DNA of 64,000 nt from Planctomycetia bacterium (GTDB lineage Bacteria; Planctomycetota; Brocadiia; Brocadiales; Brocadiaceae): the NCBI GenBank assembly GCA_015075005.1, contig JABTVC010000002.1:1346259-1410258 (forward strand), in the 5' to 3' direction. The notes beneath the pieces are model-generated. The model searched no databases. It saw only the letters and a program-made list of their open reading frames with translations, and had not been told where the DNA came from. Made by a program: the position numbers and the translations under genes. Numbering within the stretch: position 1 is the stretch's first letter; each line of letters opens with the position of its first letter. This document shows, piece after piece, positions 1 through 6,885 of this stretch.

Positions 1-1637
1 GCATAAATGGTCCAGGTATAAGGAACACTCCCTCCCGTTGGCATAAAGCTCCCATCGGTGACGTAAAGATTTTCAACATCATGTGCGCGGCAATCAGGAT
101 TAAGCACGGATTTTTTCGGATCGGTTCCAAACCGGCAGCCGCCTGCCACCAGGTTTGGCGGCGGGGAACCGCTGATGTTTGAATAAACGTTTCTCACGCC
201 CATTGTCCTCAAGAGGTATTTTGTCTTTTTCGCCAGATAATTGCCCACCGTAATGTCGTGCGGATGATAACCAACCCTTACCAGCGCTACCGGCGTTCCC
301 CATCTGTCTTTCACGTGTGTATCCAGGGAAACAAAACAATTATCTGTCGGCAACCAATCGCAAAAGATCTCATATTCAAAACGACGCTTTGTCGTAAAGT
401 AAGATTTTAATGCCTGTTTTAACGGCGACCCCCAGATCAGATTATTATTGTCGTCCCGTTTTTGCCCTTCCGCCATTGCAATAGGACCCGGATGTTCGAG
501 CAAAAAATCAATGGTGCCACCCTTTTGCCGCCCTCCCCAGGCAGGAGCATTGATAAAATACCAATCCTGCAAACTGCGATTTACAAACGGACCCTGGATT
601 TTCAGGGATTCGGTCATTGTCCTGCTCAGCTTTTTATAAATAAGATATCCACCTCCCGTACCGCCCGCAGAGAAAACAAGATTTTTGCCGACCTGCCCTG
701 TGTTGTTTGCAAGACCTTTTTCGTGGCGCGGGCCTGTGGAACACAGCAGTAAACGCGCGGTTTCTATCGCCTGGCACGCGACGACAAATATCTTCGCATC
801 GACCCGTTGCGACTTGCCGGCCCTGTCGTAATACTCAGCCGCAACAACCTTGCCCTGAGTATTACTGGTAAGTTTATAGGCCTTGGCATGTGGCCGAATT
901 TCGCAACGACCGGTTTCAAGGGCAGGGTTCAATAATGCCACACGGGCACTGCCTTTGGCTCCTGTTGAACAACCATAACTACCACACCAGCCAGAATAAC
1001 CGCAGCTCTGCCGGTTCATGGCGCTATTTGATAGAATCGCGCGCGGTGTCGGCAACGGGTGTAACCCCAGCTTGCGGCAAGCAGTATCGAACCACTCCGC
1101 AATGGGATGTTCCAGGGTGGGTGGGAAAGGGAAATCCCTGGTAGACCGCGGTTCCCGATGTGGATGTGGCACAACCCGGCCCGATATACCGACAACCGAT
1201 TCCACCTTCGCATAATACGGTTCAAGGTCTTCGTACGAGATCGGCCAATCTGCAAGATTAGCGCCATCGATCGGGCCGAAGGTTGAAAGCAAACGAAAGT
1301 CCTCAGGTTTCAGCCGGAAAAAAAACCCACTCATGAAATTAGAGGAACCGCCTACACAACTGCCCCTCCAGAAACTCCAGCCTGAAACAGATGTTGGCTC
1401 GCTGGTCCATCCCCCACGGCCATCCGGTTCTTCAATCACATGCTGTTCGTCGTTCAGATTCGGCGTGAAAACATTGCGTCTGCGACTGGCAAGCTCATCC
1501 TTATAAAAATCCTTTTCTGTAAACCAGGGACCTTTTTCAAGAACAACCACCGAATAGCCAGCTTTTGCCAGTGTAAGTGCAACAGGGCCAGCTCCGGCAC
1601 CGCTTCCTACAATACACACGTCAAAATCTGTATTCAT
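1..1637 (-). CDS. GMC-family FAD-dependent dehydrogenase (partial, runs off left edge)
   Basis: This is the flavoprotein subunit of a gluconate/alcohol-dehydrogenase-type enzyme that oxidizes a hydroxyl group with FAD. Reading from an ATG at 1637, the N-terminus shows the FAD-binding motif GSGAGAGPVALTLAKAG followed by VVVLEKG, then a GMC-like WRGSCVGGSSNF segment. The frame stays open to base 1, where the typical C-terminal DGSFMPTGGSVPYTWTIY is read, so nearly the whole protein (about 545 codons) is present and only the last residues are missing. The start overlaps the stop of the upstream subunit 3 gene by four bases (ATGA), so the two are translationally coupled. The substrate cannot be told from sequence. 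A c-type cytochrome partner, usual for this family, is not in the window. Confidence 0.9.
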   Translation of the reverse strand, partial: MNTDFDVCIVGSGAGAGPVALTLAKAGYSVVVLEKGPWFTEKDFYKDELASRRRNVFTPNLNDEQHVIEEPDGRGGWTSEPTSVSGWSFWRGSCVGGSSNFMSGFFFRLKPEDFRLLSTFGPIDGANLADWPISYEDLEPYYAKVESVVGISGRVVPHPHREPRSTRDFPFPPTLEHPIAEWFDTACRKLGLHPLPTPRAILSNSAMNRQSCGYSGWCGSYGCSTGAKGSARVALLNPALETGRCEIRPHAKAYKLTSNTQGKVVAAEYYDRAGKSQRVDAKIFVVACQAIETARLLLCSTGPRHEKGLANNTGQVGKNLVFSAGGTGGGYLIYKKLSRTMTESLKIQGPFVNRSLQDWYFINAPAWGGRQKGGTIDFLLEHPGPIAMAEGQKRDDNNNLIWGSPLKQALKSYFTTKRRFEYEIFCDWLPTDNCFVSLDTHVKDRWGTPVALVRVGYHPHDITVGNYLAKKTKYLLRTMGVRNVYSNISGSPPPNLVAGGCRFGTDPKKSVLNPDCRAHDVENLYVTDGSFMPTGGSVPYTWTIY

Positions 1638-2257
1638 ATCTTTAGCAAGTCATAATAACGTTTATTCACCGGTGGTCTCGGGTAACCGGGTTGATGGTCC
1701 AGCCACTTCCACCCTATGCCGTTGGGATTTCCACCGTACACAGGGTCGCTTAACAAGGCTTCAAACAGGTAAGAAAGGAGCTTGGATATCCAATTTCTCC
1801 CTGCTGTGGTTTTTGTAATTTGTTGCAACAAGGTTGATTGCTGCAACTGCGGTAAGCGTACGAAGACGGCTTTATGCCTTTCAAGCGCCAAGTCATCCAG
1901 CCATTTGACGCCGTTCAGGATAAATTCTTTTTCGTCCGGATCAATCGCGGGGTCAGCGATAACATTGCGTAAATACTCAATAGCGTTGATTTCCTTCGCG
2001 CCTGGTGAATCTGTTTCTGGTGGAAAGAGATGCTCTTGGACAACAGCCAGGGTCAGCCAGGGGTCCTCTGGCAGGGCAGCAGCGTAGCTTTTTGCCGCCC
2101 GTAAAACCACCGGGGATAAAAATAACGCGGCTAAAAACCCAACAGCACGCGATAGAAATGCGCGCCTGCCGATGATCTCAGACTTCGATGCTGTGTGAGA
2201 AAATGCACTACGATTCCTCCTCAGCCAGCATTTCGCGTTGGGTTTTCTCGTTTGCAT
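1634..2257 (-). CDS. gluconate 2-dehydrogenase subunit 3 family protein, Tat-type signal
   Basis: This is the small exported subunit that accompanies GMC flavoprotein dehydrogenases (PF13618 type). An RRAFL twin-arginine motif at about residues 31-35 is followed by a hydrophobic stretch, so the pair is probably exported folded by the Tat system. The C-terminal half carries the family motif with GGNPNGIGWKWLDHQPGYP near its end. I prefer the ATG at 2257, preceded by AAGG, over a TTG three codons upstream. The gene overlaps the flavoprotein gene by four bases, which supports a two-gene operon. The family assignment is firm; the substrate is unknown. Confidence 0.85.
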   Translation of the reverse strand: MQTRKPNAKCWLRRNRSAFSHTASKSEIIGRRAFLSRAVGFLAALFLSPVVLRAAKSYAAALPEDPWLTLAVVQEHLFPPETDSPGAKEINAIEYLRNVIADPAIDPDEKEFILNGVKWLDDLALERHKAVFVRLPQLQQSTLLQQITKTTAGRNWISKLLSYLFEALLSDPVYGGNPNGIGWKWLDHQPGYPRPPVNKRYYDLLKI

Positions 2258-2362
2258 AGATAACAACCTTTAAATGTTGATACGTTCATCTGTTTTTTAA
2301 GCAATTTTCGTAAAATCGACAAGGATAACGTCTCATCATAATGTATACGCGAACGTATGTCA

Positions 2363-2440: not shown

Positions 2441-2498
2441 TAATAGCTATCGTTAAAGAACGATTAACCTATATATGCGCCTTTATTCCCTATCCGCC

Positions 2499-2840
2499 TC
2501 ATTTACCTTCGCCACATTTGCCCTCATCTTTTTTCTTGCCCTCACCGCATTTGCCTTCATCTTTTTTCTTGCCCTCGCCGCACTTGCCTTCCGTTTTCTT
2601 CTTATCCCCACCGCATTTGCCTTCGTCTTTTTTCTTGCCCTCACCGCATTTACCTTCGTCTTTTTTCTTGCCCTCGTCGCATTTACCCTCCGTTTTTTTC
2701 TCCATATCAGTTTTGAAGGTAATTGCGTCATTGATTGCAAATGGATTAGACTCAGCAAATACCGTGGGAACTATAGCAGACGTAATAAAAAACGCAGCGC
2801 CAAGCGCCACAGTAAACAGTTTTTTCTTGTTGATAGTCAT
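2499..2840 (-). CDS. exported EGKCG-repeat peptide (HvfA/bufferin-like MNIO substrate family)
   Basis: A 113-residue protein with a clear signal peptide (residues 1-29, cleavage after VFA). After a short spacer the mature part is six tandem EGKC units (one EGKCD, five EGKCG) separated by Lys/Asp/Glu spacers such as DEGKKK. EGKCG repeats are the hallmark of HvfA-type peptides, in which the cysteines are known to be modified by DUF692 (MNIO) enzymes with a DUF2063 partner and to bind copper. No DUF692 or DUF2063 gene is in this window. An ECF sigma and anti-sigma pair lies upstream on the same strand, an arrangement known for related bufferin and gig operons. An AAAGGA ribosome site precedes the ATG. 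Modification and copper binding are inference from the motif. Confidence 0.75.
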   Translation of the reverse strand: MTINKKKLFTVALGAAFFITSAIVPTVFAESNPFAINDAITFKTDMEKKTEGKCDEGKKKDEGKCGEGKKKDEGKCGGDKKKTEGKCGEGKKKDEGKCGEGKKKDEGKCGEGK

Positions 2841-2981
2841 GATATTTCCTTTCTTTCTACACTAATATAAAATATAAATAAATTAGCTTTAAAATCACGA
2901 TACCCCCCAATATCGGAGAAAAGGGTTAATGAAATAGAATATGACCTCATCTTAAGTCTTGAAAGTTTCTTGCAGAAATCC

Positions 2982-3176
2982 CTAAACTGAATTATTCGTA
3001 AGTCCGGACACAAAATCACGGCCAAAGTACCTTGCCATGAGAAACGCCAGGGTTGCACCCGGATTGGAAGCAAGCACGTTATAGACAGCACCTCTCGCCA
3101 CTCCGAATATTGCACCTCCGCACAGTGTTAAGAGTGAACCCTGAAGAGCAACTATGCATCCAACATTAATTTGTTT
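2982..3176 (-). pseudogene. TVP38/TMEM64 (VTT, DedA-like) membrane protein remnant
   Basis: Immediately after the anti-sigma stop codon, the same frame reads through about 60 codons without a proper start. It contains SLLTLCGGAIFGVARGAV and then GATLAFLMARYFGRD, the core signature of VTT-domain proteins such as TVP38/TMEM64. A TAG at 2984-2982 ends it. There is no ATG, and both termini of the roughly 200-residue domain are missing, so this is a relic of a gene once downstream of the sigma/anti-sigma pair. The ORFs called here in other frames are shadows. Confidence 0.6.
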
Positions 3177-4046
3177 TTATGCCTTCGTAAGCGCTTTTAT
3201 CATTTTTTCGCTATGTAACATCGATACCATAACGTACTGAGTGTCAGTCTCTTTCCATCCAACAATTTGGCAGGAGCCGCAAAACCCGGTACCTGTGTAT
3301 ACCACCATCTTGTTCGCCATAACTTCTTTCATCTTTGAAAAATCAATGTTAGAATTACAAATCACAGCCAACGTAATTGGGGTATCATCAAGCATGTAAA
3401 AAACCAGGGGTACATTTTTGCCGCTAATATTAGTTAAAGATGCACCCACTAACTGTACATTTCCTTTCATAAAAGGAAGCGTTACCGTTAAACCAGTTTG
3501 TCTTTGGAAGTACTCCACAATCGCTTTTGTATTCTGTATCTGTATATTTTCTTCAATGCCAGGCAGGGTTATGTTTAGACCAGTTTCATTTTGAAAGGGG
3601 CCTATAATTTCTCTGGCATTCTGTAAACGTATGTCAGGAACAAGCTGCTTCATTATATAGTCGTGATATTTCGACTCAGTGAGGTAAAAAATATTATTTT
3701 TCTTCAGCATATTTTGTATCACAAAAAAACAAGCAATAAGAATTATTGCTGTTGCTATGCCAGAAACTAATGCGAATCTGCTTCTCAACAAGAAATTCTT
3801 TATACATTGAGTGAAGAAGTTTGGTCTTCTTTCCGCGCTTCTCAAAATTATTTGCTTAAGGTATGCAGGGGCTTTTACCTTGCAAACAGTTTCCTTCACT
3901 CTTGCTTGAAGCAGCCTTTCCTTTTCTATTTTCAGGCAGCAGGCATGGCACATATTAACATGCGCCAGAACATCGATATTCCTTTCCACATCGAGTTCGC
4001 TATCGAGAAAGGCATAAAAATATTTTCTTACATCGGTACAATTCAT
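3177..4046 (-). CDS. membrane anti-sigma factor with zinc-finger (zf-HC2) N-terminus
   Basis: A 289-residue protein. The N-terminus has a zf-HC2-like HVNMCHACC pattern (about residues 29-37), typical of anti-sigma domains that hold an ECF factor. One membrane segment lies near residues 92-112, followed by an extracytoplasmic domain of about 175 residues with the motif GTGFCGSCQIVGW near the C-terminus. It starts three bases after the stop of the ECF sigma gene, so the two are co-transcribed. The extracytoplasmic domain is presumably the sensor; its two close cysteines (FCGSC) could respond to a metal or to redox, but that is inference. Confidence 0.85.
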   Translation of the reverse strand: MNCTDVRKYFYAFLDSELDVERNIDVLAHVNMCHACCLKIEKERLLQARVKETVCKVKAPAYLKQIILRSAERRPNFFTQCIKNFLLRSRFALVSGIATAIILIACFFVIQNMLKKNNIFYLTESKYHDYIMKQLVPDIRLQNAREIIGPFQNETGLNITLPGIEENIQIQNTKAIVEYFQRQTGLTVTLPFMKGNVQLVGASLTNISGKNVPLVFYMLDDTPITLAVICNSNIDFSKMKEVMANKMVVYTGTGFCGSCQIVGWKETDTQYVMVSMLHSEKMIKALTKA

Positions 4047-4049
4047 TTC

Positions 4050-4592
4050 TTATTCTCTTTCGTAACCGTGTTTTTTTGCATACCCTGTTAATTTTTCCTT
4101 GAGAATCTTTCGCCCCCTATAGATTCTGGACATTACCGTCCCGATTGGGCAGCTAAGCATTTTGGAAATCTCCTTGTAGGAAAAGCCCTCTACTATTGAA
4201 AGTAAGATCACCAGTCGAAAATCATCGGGCAATTCTTCCAATGCTTTTTTTATATCAGAGTCCAACCATTCATCAAATTCTGTTTCATTTTCTGCAATAG
4301 GAGACGTTAAGGCCTCCTCTTTTATTGATTCATGAAAGGACTCAATGCTATCAAAATCAACCAAAGATGGTTCTGTTTTACTTTTCCTATAGTGATTGAT
4401 GAAAGTGTTCATTAATATTTTAAATAACCAAGCCCTTTCATTATTTATTATTTCGCCATTCTGGAGAGATTTGAATGCCTTTAAATAGGTTTCCTGAACC
4501 AGGTCGTCTGCATTATTTTCATTCTTAACAAGATATAATGCCGATCTGTATAAAGCATCTATATGTGTGAGAAGAGTATCTTTTTGGCTCAA
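4050..4592 (-). CDS. ECF-family RNA polymerase sigma factor
   Basis: A 180-residue sigma-70 family ECF factor. Region 2 is seen as DDLVQETYLKAFKSL (about residues 29-43) with a following WLFKILMN segment. Region 4 has LPDDFRLVILLSIVEGFSY, followed by the helix-turn-helix KEISKMLSCPIGTVMSRIYR. The start codon is TTG, with no strong ribosome site, so the exact start is uncertain. It is the first gene of a pair with its anti-sigma factor, and the EGKCG peptide gene lies 1.2 kb further along on the same strand and is a likely target. I could not identify a shared promoter motif by eye. Confidence 0.9.
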   Translation of the reverse strand: MSQKDTLLTHIDALYRSALYLVKNENNADDLVQETYLKAFKSLQNGEIINNERAWLFKILMNTFINHYRKSKTEPSLVDFDSIESFHESIKEEALTSPIAENETEFDEWLDSDIKKALEELPDDFRLVILLSIVEGFSYKEISKMLSCPIGTVMSRIYRGRKILKEKLTGYAKKHGYERE

Positions 4593-5061: not shown

Positions 5062-6885
5062 TTAACAGCATTTTGGCCCACACGATATTTCCACGTCCTT
5101 GCCTGGCATACCAGACAACAGAAACATCACTTTATAGGGAGGATTTGAGAGTTTCCATGCAGTATCGGTACATATTTCCACAGGGATTCCTGCCGGATAC
5201 GTGTGCCCGTCATCATCCGAAACACTGCTAAAAGGTCCTCTATAGGTCGCATATTGTCCGGTGTATTTACATTCCTTCGACTTCTCGTATTTGTACCCCC
5301 TTGCAGTCACGGAGTAAAACGTAAAACCATTCACCTCCTTATAGAGATAGCGATTCACCACTTCCAGCCCATAGAAACCTGAAGTCTTCGCTATCGTGAA
5401 AAATTCCCGCTCTGTAATTGCCCCGGAAATGCACTCGCCCCACAATTTTTTATCCTGTTTCATAGACACGGGGACTTCCCTGCCAGAGACAATGTCTGAT
5501 ATCGCGAATCTACCACCTATCTTTAGCACCCTGAATATCTCTTGAAAAACCTTCGTCTTTTGGTCTGATAAATTGATGACGCAATTGGACGTTACCAGAT
5601 CAACGCATTCATCTGCCAGAGGTATCTCTTCCAGAAACCCTTTCATAAAATGTACATTATCAAAACCCAGTTTTTCCGCAACAGCGCCTTTTGACCTATG
5701 GGCATTTCGCAGCATTTCATCCGTCATGTCAACCCCGATAACCCGTCCATATTTGCCTACCAGCTTTGCAGCGATAAAACAGTCTATCCCACCGCCAGCG
5801 CCCAAATCCAGCACACTTTCTCCGGGTTCGACGTTGGCTTGCGTCATGGGGCTGCCGCACCCATACGAAATGCCCAAAACTTCCGGGGGAATATGCGATA
5901 GGTCTGTTGGATTATAACTGGTTGGACAACATAGTTCCTTTTGAGGATGAATGGCGGCAGTGGCATAAAATTCATTAACTGACTTCCTGACGACGTCTTT
6001 GACTTCCGGGTCTTCATTTTTACAGGTTAGTCCCGTTGTTCTGCAGGTATAACAAGCAGGCGATTCCATCGTGTACGGCCCAAGGGATTCTTGCAAAGTC
6101 CATCCCATCCAGGCTTTTGGAGTGGCAATAAGTAGGGGACAAACAAATACCCCTTTATTGGTCACGATACGGCTGGTGGTACATTGGAGATTGTCCATCG
6201 GGTAATTATCAAAGCACTGATCGGTAACCCGTTCGCTTTCATCATAAGGTCTGACAAATTCGGCGCATCGTCCCAGGAGAACCAAAGGTAGTTTTTTGAG
6301 TCTTAACTGTGGGATATTCAAAGAACGTTCAAACAACTGAAGTTCTTCTGCCGTTTCTTTCGTAAACTTTCCATATTTCGACCAATCAGCTACCGTAATA
6401 ATCGGATTAAAACCAGCATGTGTCAGGGATTGAATACCCCTGATTGCCCTCTTAAATGCTCCCTCTCCACGAATCTGGTCATTTTCTTCCTCTATAAAAC
6501 TTTCCAGGCTTACCCTGAATGCTAATGTATGTTTGGATAGGCGAGATACCTGGGCTAGCATTTGTGAAATATCCTCTGTTATTAAGGTGCCATTTGAAAG
6601 GACTGTGGTCTGACCGTATTTTAGGGACTCTTGTAAAATATCTACCATTTGAGGATGTAAAAAAGGCTCGCCTCCGGTAAGGTAAAATGCCTTTACTCCC
6701 AGCGTTGCTGCCTCTTTCAAATACCACTGTATAGTATCTACGGTTATCATCTCATGTGTTGTGTTTTTGGGGCTGCAGGAGATAAAGCAATGGGCACACT
6801 GTAAGTTACAATGAGTTCCTGTTACCTGAAACCACAATGTTTCGAGCTGTTTTAAATAAACCTTTGGCGTATTAATGGTTCTCAC
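5062..6885 (-). CDS. radical SAM / ArsM-type SAM methyltransferase fusion
   Basis: A 607-residue two-domain protein. The N-terminal radical SAM domain carries CNLQCAHC (the CX3CX2C 4Fe-4S ligands, residues 26-33) and a TGGEPFLHP motif; a cysteine-containing stretch with CYTCRTTGLTC around residue 285 could hold an auxiliary cluster. From about residue 340 an ArsM-like methyltransferase domain follows, with VLDLGAGGGIDCFIAAK and TSNCVINLSDQK, both close to arsenite methyltransferase motifs, and a conserved-type cysteine in WGECISGA. The protein ends in CGPKCC, a possible metal-binding tail. It probably builds a methylated or alkylated arsenic (or other metalloid) product; the substrate is inferred. 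The annotated GTG start lies inside the Shine-Dalgarno sequence. Confidence 0.85.
   Translation of the reverse strand: MRTINTPKVYLKQLETLWFQVTGTHCNLQCAHCFISCSPKNTTHEMITVDTIQWYLKEAATLGVKAFYLTGGEPFLHPQMVDILQESLKYGQTTVLSNGTLITEDISQMLAQVSRLSKHTLAFRVSLESFIEEENDQIRGEGAFKRAIRGIQSLTHAGFNPIITVADWSKYGKFTKETAEELQLFERSLNIPQLRLKKLPLVLLGRCAEFVRPYDESERVTDQCFDNYPMDNLQCTTSRIVTNKGVFVCPLLIATPKAWMGWTLQESLGPYTMESPACYTCRTTGLTCKNEDPEVKDVVRKSVNEFYATAAIHPQKELCCPTSYNPTDLSHIPPEVLGISYGCGSPMTQANVEPGESVLDLGAGGGIDCFIAAKLVGKYGRVIGVDMTDEMLRNAHRSKGAVAEKLGFDNVHFMKGFLEEIPLADECVDLVTSNCVINLSDQKTKVFQEIFRVLKIGGRFAISDIVSGREVPVSMKQDKKLWGECISGAITEREFFTIAKTSGFYGLEVVNRYLYKEVNGFTFYSVTARGYKYEKSKECKYTGQYATYRGPFSSVSDDDGHTYPAGIPVEICTDTAWKLSNPPYKVMFLLSGMPGKDVEISCGPKCC

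Follow-up and report, generated by a model that had tools for sequence, protein, structure and literature searches.

EGKCG peptides have so far been understood as substrates of MNIO enzymes that turn into copper-binding thiooxazoles, and the locus analyzed here raises the question of how such a peptide is handled in an anammox bacterium of the family Brocadiaceae in whose genome no MNIO gene was matched. The locus lies in a 64,000-nucleotide stretch of DNA (the window), and its peptide belongs to a conserved EGKCG lineage in strict anaerobes without MNIO that is tied to a widespread flavoenzyme subfamily with an altered active site. This conserved peptide–flavoenzyme operon suggests a different, possibly oxygen-free, handling of cysteine-repeat peptides. 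With this cassette it becomes possible to test concretely whether EGKCG peptides function without modification, depend on a different class of enzyme for maturation, or act as thiol partners, and a first guess can be made at the substrate of a GMC subfamily whose present name derives solely from gluconate dehydrogenase.

An HvfA-family peptide without the GY motif

The peptide gene (positions 2,499 to 2,840, minus strand) encodes 113 amino acids with six EGKC units, one EGKCD and five EGKCG, and was found, together with the anti-sigma and ECF sigma genes, where the initial sequence-only reading had placed it. A Sec-type signal with a hydrophobic stretch forms the N-terminus and is closely followed by ESNPFA. 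When the six units were compared, every nucleotide difference fell at a third codon position, and shuffling the mature peptide sequence 20,000 times never produced three or more EGKC motifs; the repeat is thus protein-coding and not a product of chance. The peptide matched NF050137 (the NCBIfam HvfA-family domain) with 37.9 bits against a cut-off of 19.5, which supports its initial assignment to the exported HvfA/EGKCG family, and the relatives tested scored between 48.7 and 95.7 bits, except for those of locus L054 (no match) and locus L093 (17.5 bits, under the cut-off). The cut-off of the HvfA equivalog NF050188 (95 bits) was not reached (33 bits), and it is not discriminating here, as two MNIO-linked peptides likewise scored just 41 to 48 bits.

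The leader sequences set the two groups of peptides apart. All 11 MNIO-linked EGKCG peptides examined carry NPF followed by GY within about ten residues, while GY is missing from the GMC-linked peptides that bear NPF, the present one included, and the GMC-linked peptide of locus L118 has no NPF. Given that the N-terminal signal of HvfA serves substrate recognition by HvfBC (PMC13419390), the missing GY may reflect a lost recognition by MNIO. The predicted structure of the peptide alone was uninformative (pLDDT 47). Peptides in related genomes were located by an EGKC tandem pattern search; a whole-genome NF050137 search missed the peptide of the window genome itself, probably through its low-complexity filter. 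Three pattern matches (genomes G013, G028, and G031) had no GMC partner and were taken as chance, and an open reading frame on the strand opposite the repeat (2,475 to 2,870, plus strand) is mechanical and not a gene.

The peptide gene heads a peptide–G3–GMC cassette in Brocadiales

The cluster begins with the peptide gene and extends leftward through a G3 gene to a GMC gene that crosses the window start. G3 (1,634 to 2,266, minus strand) is a Gluconate_2-dh3 (PF13618) small subunit (67.3 bits, cut-off 23.4) with a Tat-like RRxFL signal whose RR is conserved in an alignment of 75 homologues, and it probably accompanies the GMC enzyme in export as its hitch-hiker. The GMC oxidoreductase (window positions 1 to 1,637, minus strand; full gene at G000:C12:1346210-1347895, its last codons lying before the window start) has 561 amino acids, and the start of its gene overlaps the G3 gene by 4 bases in this genome.

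The sequence-only reading had described the peptide as an orphan, which the related genomes contradict. The GMC enzyme was detected (E <= 1e-80) in 9 of 98 related genomes, and the exported EGKC tandem peptide occurs in exactly the same nine species, always beside G3–GMC. Within the family the distribution is patchy, with the cassette present in 1 of the 11 species of the window genome's own genus, as would be expected if the cassette is gained and lost as a whole. In genome G058 a duplication has placed two peptide–G3 pairs before one GMC gene, which ties the peptide to G3 directly. A tandem peptide-G3-peptide-G3-GMC arrangement was seen at L055:6334-8321, where the second peptide has His-rich spacers (DDHHHAKCGG). 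Two anammox genomes carry a GH15 glycoside hydrolase gene after GMC (L051:10192-12216 and L052:10605-12662), which the window genome does not. DoxX was considered as an obligate part in anammox bacteria and rejected, the window genome having one distant DoxX gene and genomes G018 and G059 none.

No MNIO gene was matched in the cassette species

The sequence-only reading had noted that the window holds no MNIO gene and had proposed that an MNIO encoded elsewhere acts on the peptide in trans. The first statement holds and extends to the whole genome assembly (3.89 Mb, 93% complete), which gave no match to PF05114 (DUF692, MNIO) or to PF09836 (DUF2063) in searches whose positive controls from Caulobacter and Deinobacterium matched. 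The same result speaks against the second, as do the other eight cassette species: PF05114 was matched in none of the nine, among them G020, a single contig that is 99% complete. The sole PF05114 match in the family and order is a partial one of 53 bits in G016, which is not among the nine. PF05114 was also not found in the genomes of the three loci outside Brocadiales that link an EGKCG peptide to G3–GMC (L080, L093, and L118), no DUF2063-like open reading frame was present in 91 G3–GMC loci, and an MNIO gene never precedes the G3–GMC pairs of other phyla.

The GMC enzyme has an altered active site

By both sequence and fold, the nearest solved relatives of the GMC enzyme are a Burkholderia FAD-glucose dehydrogenase (6a2u) and Gluconobacter fructose dehydrogenase (FDH; 7w2j), enzymes in which FAD and a [3Fe-4S] cluster are accompanied by a small Tat hitch-hiker subunit (PMC9727119). 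The cassette enzyme is of this FAD/[3Fe-4S] type: with these two and the gluconate dehydrogenase complexes it shares the GMC fold, the FAD motif, and a small Tat subunit of PF13618 encoded alongside, and its invariant Cys212, Cys218, and Cys223 align with the three cluster cysteines. It departs from them at the active site. According to PDB titles, H1147, N1146, and N1190 are the residues mutated in FDH; the position of the catalytic histidine H1147 is Leu496 in all 88 GMC sequences, and that of the catalytic asparagine N1190 is Pro539 in 85 of 88, while Asn1146 is kept. Cys501 nearby is kept in 87 of 88, and the subfamily has extra invariant cysteines that set it apart from the known complexes. 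This correspondence comes from sequence alignment, the AlphaFold model being poor around the active-site loops, and the replacement of both residues makes an ordinary sugar or alcohol dehydrogenase unlikely.

The known complexes also differ in their gene neighborhoods. No multiheme cytochrome c subunit adjoins the GMC gene, in that none of the 50 loci with a same-strand downstream gene had three or more CxxCH motifs in that gene (2 of 50 had any CxxCH), and a peptide or a thioredoxin-like partner stands upstream instead. The cassette itself encodes no electron acceptor.

G3–GMC pairs exchange partners outside Brocadiales

With the GMC alignment as query, 80 loci of 62 to 78% identity were recovered from GTDB contigs, and G3 was detected in 87 of the 91 loci examined, nearly always directly upstream of GMC. 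At 36 loci the gene before G3 encodes an exported, periplasmic thioredoxin-like protein (Thioredoxin_7/DsbH-like), in most cases with WCxWC, whereas an EGKCG peptide was present in 14 of 89 loci and never together with the thioredoxin-like partner. This mutual exclusion has a hypergeometric probability of 3e-4, which is indicative only, as the loci are related. About half of the loci outside Brocadiales have neither partner recognized alongside. The thioredoxin-like–G3–GMC operon (loci within L074 to L150, e.g., L116:3889-6665) is widespread, mostly in Gammaproteobacteria including sulfur oxidizers, and shows the same loss of histidine and asparagine.

The EGKCG peptide stands before or beside G3 in three lineages besides Brocadiales. 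Loci L080 and L118 have the order peptide-DoxX-G3-GMC, which is the hvf layout with G3 and GMC in place of DUF692 and DUF2063, and at L093 (Gallionellaceae) the peptide gene is divergent and its product falls just under the NF050137 cut-off. EGKCG-linked loci occupy four separate places on the GMC tree (Brocadiales, L080, L093, and L118), and the starred branches force as many changes of label. A pattern survey of 245 genomes of the phylum of L118 matched only the L118 genome itself. Among Gammaproteobacteria, genomes with a G3–GMC pair often encode a normal HvfA-MNIO-DUF2063-DoxX operon at another site, which shows that G3–GMC is not an MNIO replacement in every genome.

A possible MNIO-independent route and its alternatives

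Compared with the hvfABCX systems of HvfA/oxazolin-fontiphorin (Buf_EGKCG) peptides, the cassette shares the Sec-exported EGKCG repeat, the NPF after the signal, an NF050137 score above the cut-off, and, in the distant genomes of L080 and L118, a DoxX gene after the peptide gene. It differs in having neither a DUF692 MNIO nor a DUF2063/RRE partner, at the locus or in the genome, in the missing GY, and in carrying a Tat-type G3 with a GMC flavoenzyme instead. The trait of hvfABC-type MNIO clusters is a 5-thiooxazole on cysteine (−4 Da each) that binds copper. We tentatively favor, at somewhat less than even confidence, an HvfA-type system that is independent of MNIO, in which an exported flavoenzyme works on or with the cysteine thiols of the peptide. 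The peptide would leave through its Sec-type signal, and the folded FAD/[3Fe-4S] enzyme would, by homology, be carried out with G3 through the Tat-type signal. In the extracytoplasmic space the flavoenzyme could then act on or alongside the KC(G/D) thiols; in the simplest case it would withdraw electrons from them, forming disulfides or oxidizing the cysteines further, and pass these via FAD and the Fe-S cluster to an acceptor that the cassette does not encode. Metal binding by the peptide would be the end use. Many gammaproteobacteria have, in the position of the peptide and beside the same enzyme pair, a periplasmic thioredoxin-like protein with CxxC.

Several observations weigh against this reading. 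The linkage could stem from a stress response common to both, roughly half of the non-Brocadiales loci show no recognized partner, the Brocadiales cases form one lineage and the other three EGKCG links are single genomes, and the L093 peptide is divergent and the enzyme model weak around the active site. A thiol substrate is, to our knowledge, not an established activity for GMC enzymes, and the cassette supplies no acceptor. Anammox bacteria are anaerobes. Since MNIOs use O2 (PMC13097082), a flavoenzyme route free of O2 is attractive in such organisms, but its boldest form, with G3–GMC as a new class of peptide-modifying enzyme and the anaerobic counterpart of MNIO, an O2-independent FAD/[3Fe-4S] dehydrogenase that oxidizes EGKCG cysteines extracytoplasmically, appears improbable. 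Instead, the peptide might go unmodified, as the sequence-only reading had allowed, and be a thiol-rich envelope buffer for copper or another soft metal, with G3–GMC acting on some other small molecule and only the stress regulon in common. Free cysteines beside lysine and glycine can bind soft metals without modification, MNIO is absent, and the island around the cassette is of a stress type, with VTT, a redoxin, and a disulfide-reductase-like gene among its members. Even so, strict adjacency and co-occurrence in nine species, co-duplication, and the repeated links exceed what a shared regulon would lead one to expect, and the GMC enzyme is missing the catalytic pair for alcohol or sugar oxidation, so that we consider this buffer role rather unlikely, though still a serious candidate.

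A further alternative makes GMC–G3 a thiol-disulfide or redox relay, with the EGKCG peptide as its thiol partner or electron sink in the manner of thioredoxin and with metal binding not its purpose. The exchange of the two partners across loci and the RsrA-like anti-sigma factor in its ZAS part would agree with this, but low-complexity KCG repeats are unlike redox proteins of the CxxC kind, those HvfA-type peptides whose function is known bind copper (PMC13097082), and the exclusivity of the partners is partly phylogenetic; we therefore hold a relay to be doubtful. The arrangement first proposed, with modification by an MNIO encoded at another genomic site and control by the ECF sigma factor, draws on the HvfA-family match and on a landscape study that found numerous precursors not encoded with MNIO genes (PMC12452194). 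To hold, it would need an MNIO gene in the roughly 7% that this assembly lacks and likewise in the missing parts of every other cassette species, for none of which PF05114 was matched; together with the lost GY motif and the presence of the sigma pair in genomes without the peptide, this makes it very improbable. The landscape study does not mention GMC or gluconate-type genes (PMC12452194), and no paper was found in the open-licence literature that connects G3/GMC to EGKCG peptides or to GMC enzymes of anammox bacteria. Precursors without MNIO neighbors are already known, and the G3–GMC partner seems not to have been so far.

The cassette was most likely inserted into an older stress operon

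The sequence-only reading had also suggested that the peptide is under ECF sigma control. The ECF sigma factor (4,050 to 4,592, minus strand; TIGR02947-like) and the anti-sigma factor (3,177 to 4,046, minus strand; an HxxxCxxC zinc finger of zf-HC2 type, one transmembrane segment, and an extracytoplasmic part with CGSCQ) are not obligate to the cassette. Close homologues of the anti-sigma factor (56 to 92% identical) occur in at least six other anammox genomes, with the sigma gene alongside where the contig reaches; the genes after them encode a VTT protein, a disulfide-reductase-like flavoprotein, and in most cases DUF547, and not the peptide. The pair is divergent from the peptide in G018, and Scalindua-type loci have the cassette and no adjacent pair. 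The evidence thus goes against the suggested control, and the link of the sigma factor to the peptide is secondary. ECF-sigma-controlled bufferins (DUF2282, Buf2) likewise place a Cys-rich exported peptide near an ECF sigma/anti-sigma pair; here, in contrast, the peptide family is different, MNIO is absent, the anti-sigma factor is of ZAS type and not NrsF, and pair and peptide each occur without the other, so that the consistent linkage of the bufferin type was not found. The RsrA-like HxxxCxxC zinc finger and the extracytoplasmic CGxCQ of the anti-sigma factor are kept also in genomes without the peptide, and it is a possible thiol or metal sensor.

Between the anti-sigma and peptide genes lies a remnant of a VTT-domain (TVP38/DedA-like) gene (3,007 to 3,163, minus strand), whose 157 bases have 88.5% DNA identity to the gene that relatives carry intact after the anti-sigma gene and which marks the insertion point of the cassette. 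Taken with the peptide-free operons of the relatives, this remnant indicates that peptide–G3–GMC was most likely inserted into an older sigma/anti-sigma/VTT/reductase stress operon. A remnant of a second anti-sigma gene (G000:C12:1343647-1343793) and the VTT remnant flank the cassette on either side, as traces of recombination. The open reading frame at 2,837 to 3,115 (minus strand), in the region of the VTT remnant, is mechanical and was not counted as a gene.

Comparison by eye of the stretches before the sigma gene and before the peptide gene gave no shared motif, and a conserved dyad is present before the peptide only. This dyad, CGATA-N7/8-TATCG (2,898 to 2,915, minus strand), is the only copy in the window, lies 58 to 75 bases before the peptide start in an upstream stretch conserved in three genomes of the same family, and, as a candidate operator or promoter, may be the true control site of the peptide gene. 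Upstream of the sigma gene and on the same strand, positions 5,062 to 6,885 (minus) encode a protein of 607 amino acids that joins a radical SAM domain to an ArsM-type arsenite methyltransferase and carries a C-terminal GPKCC.
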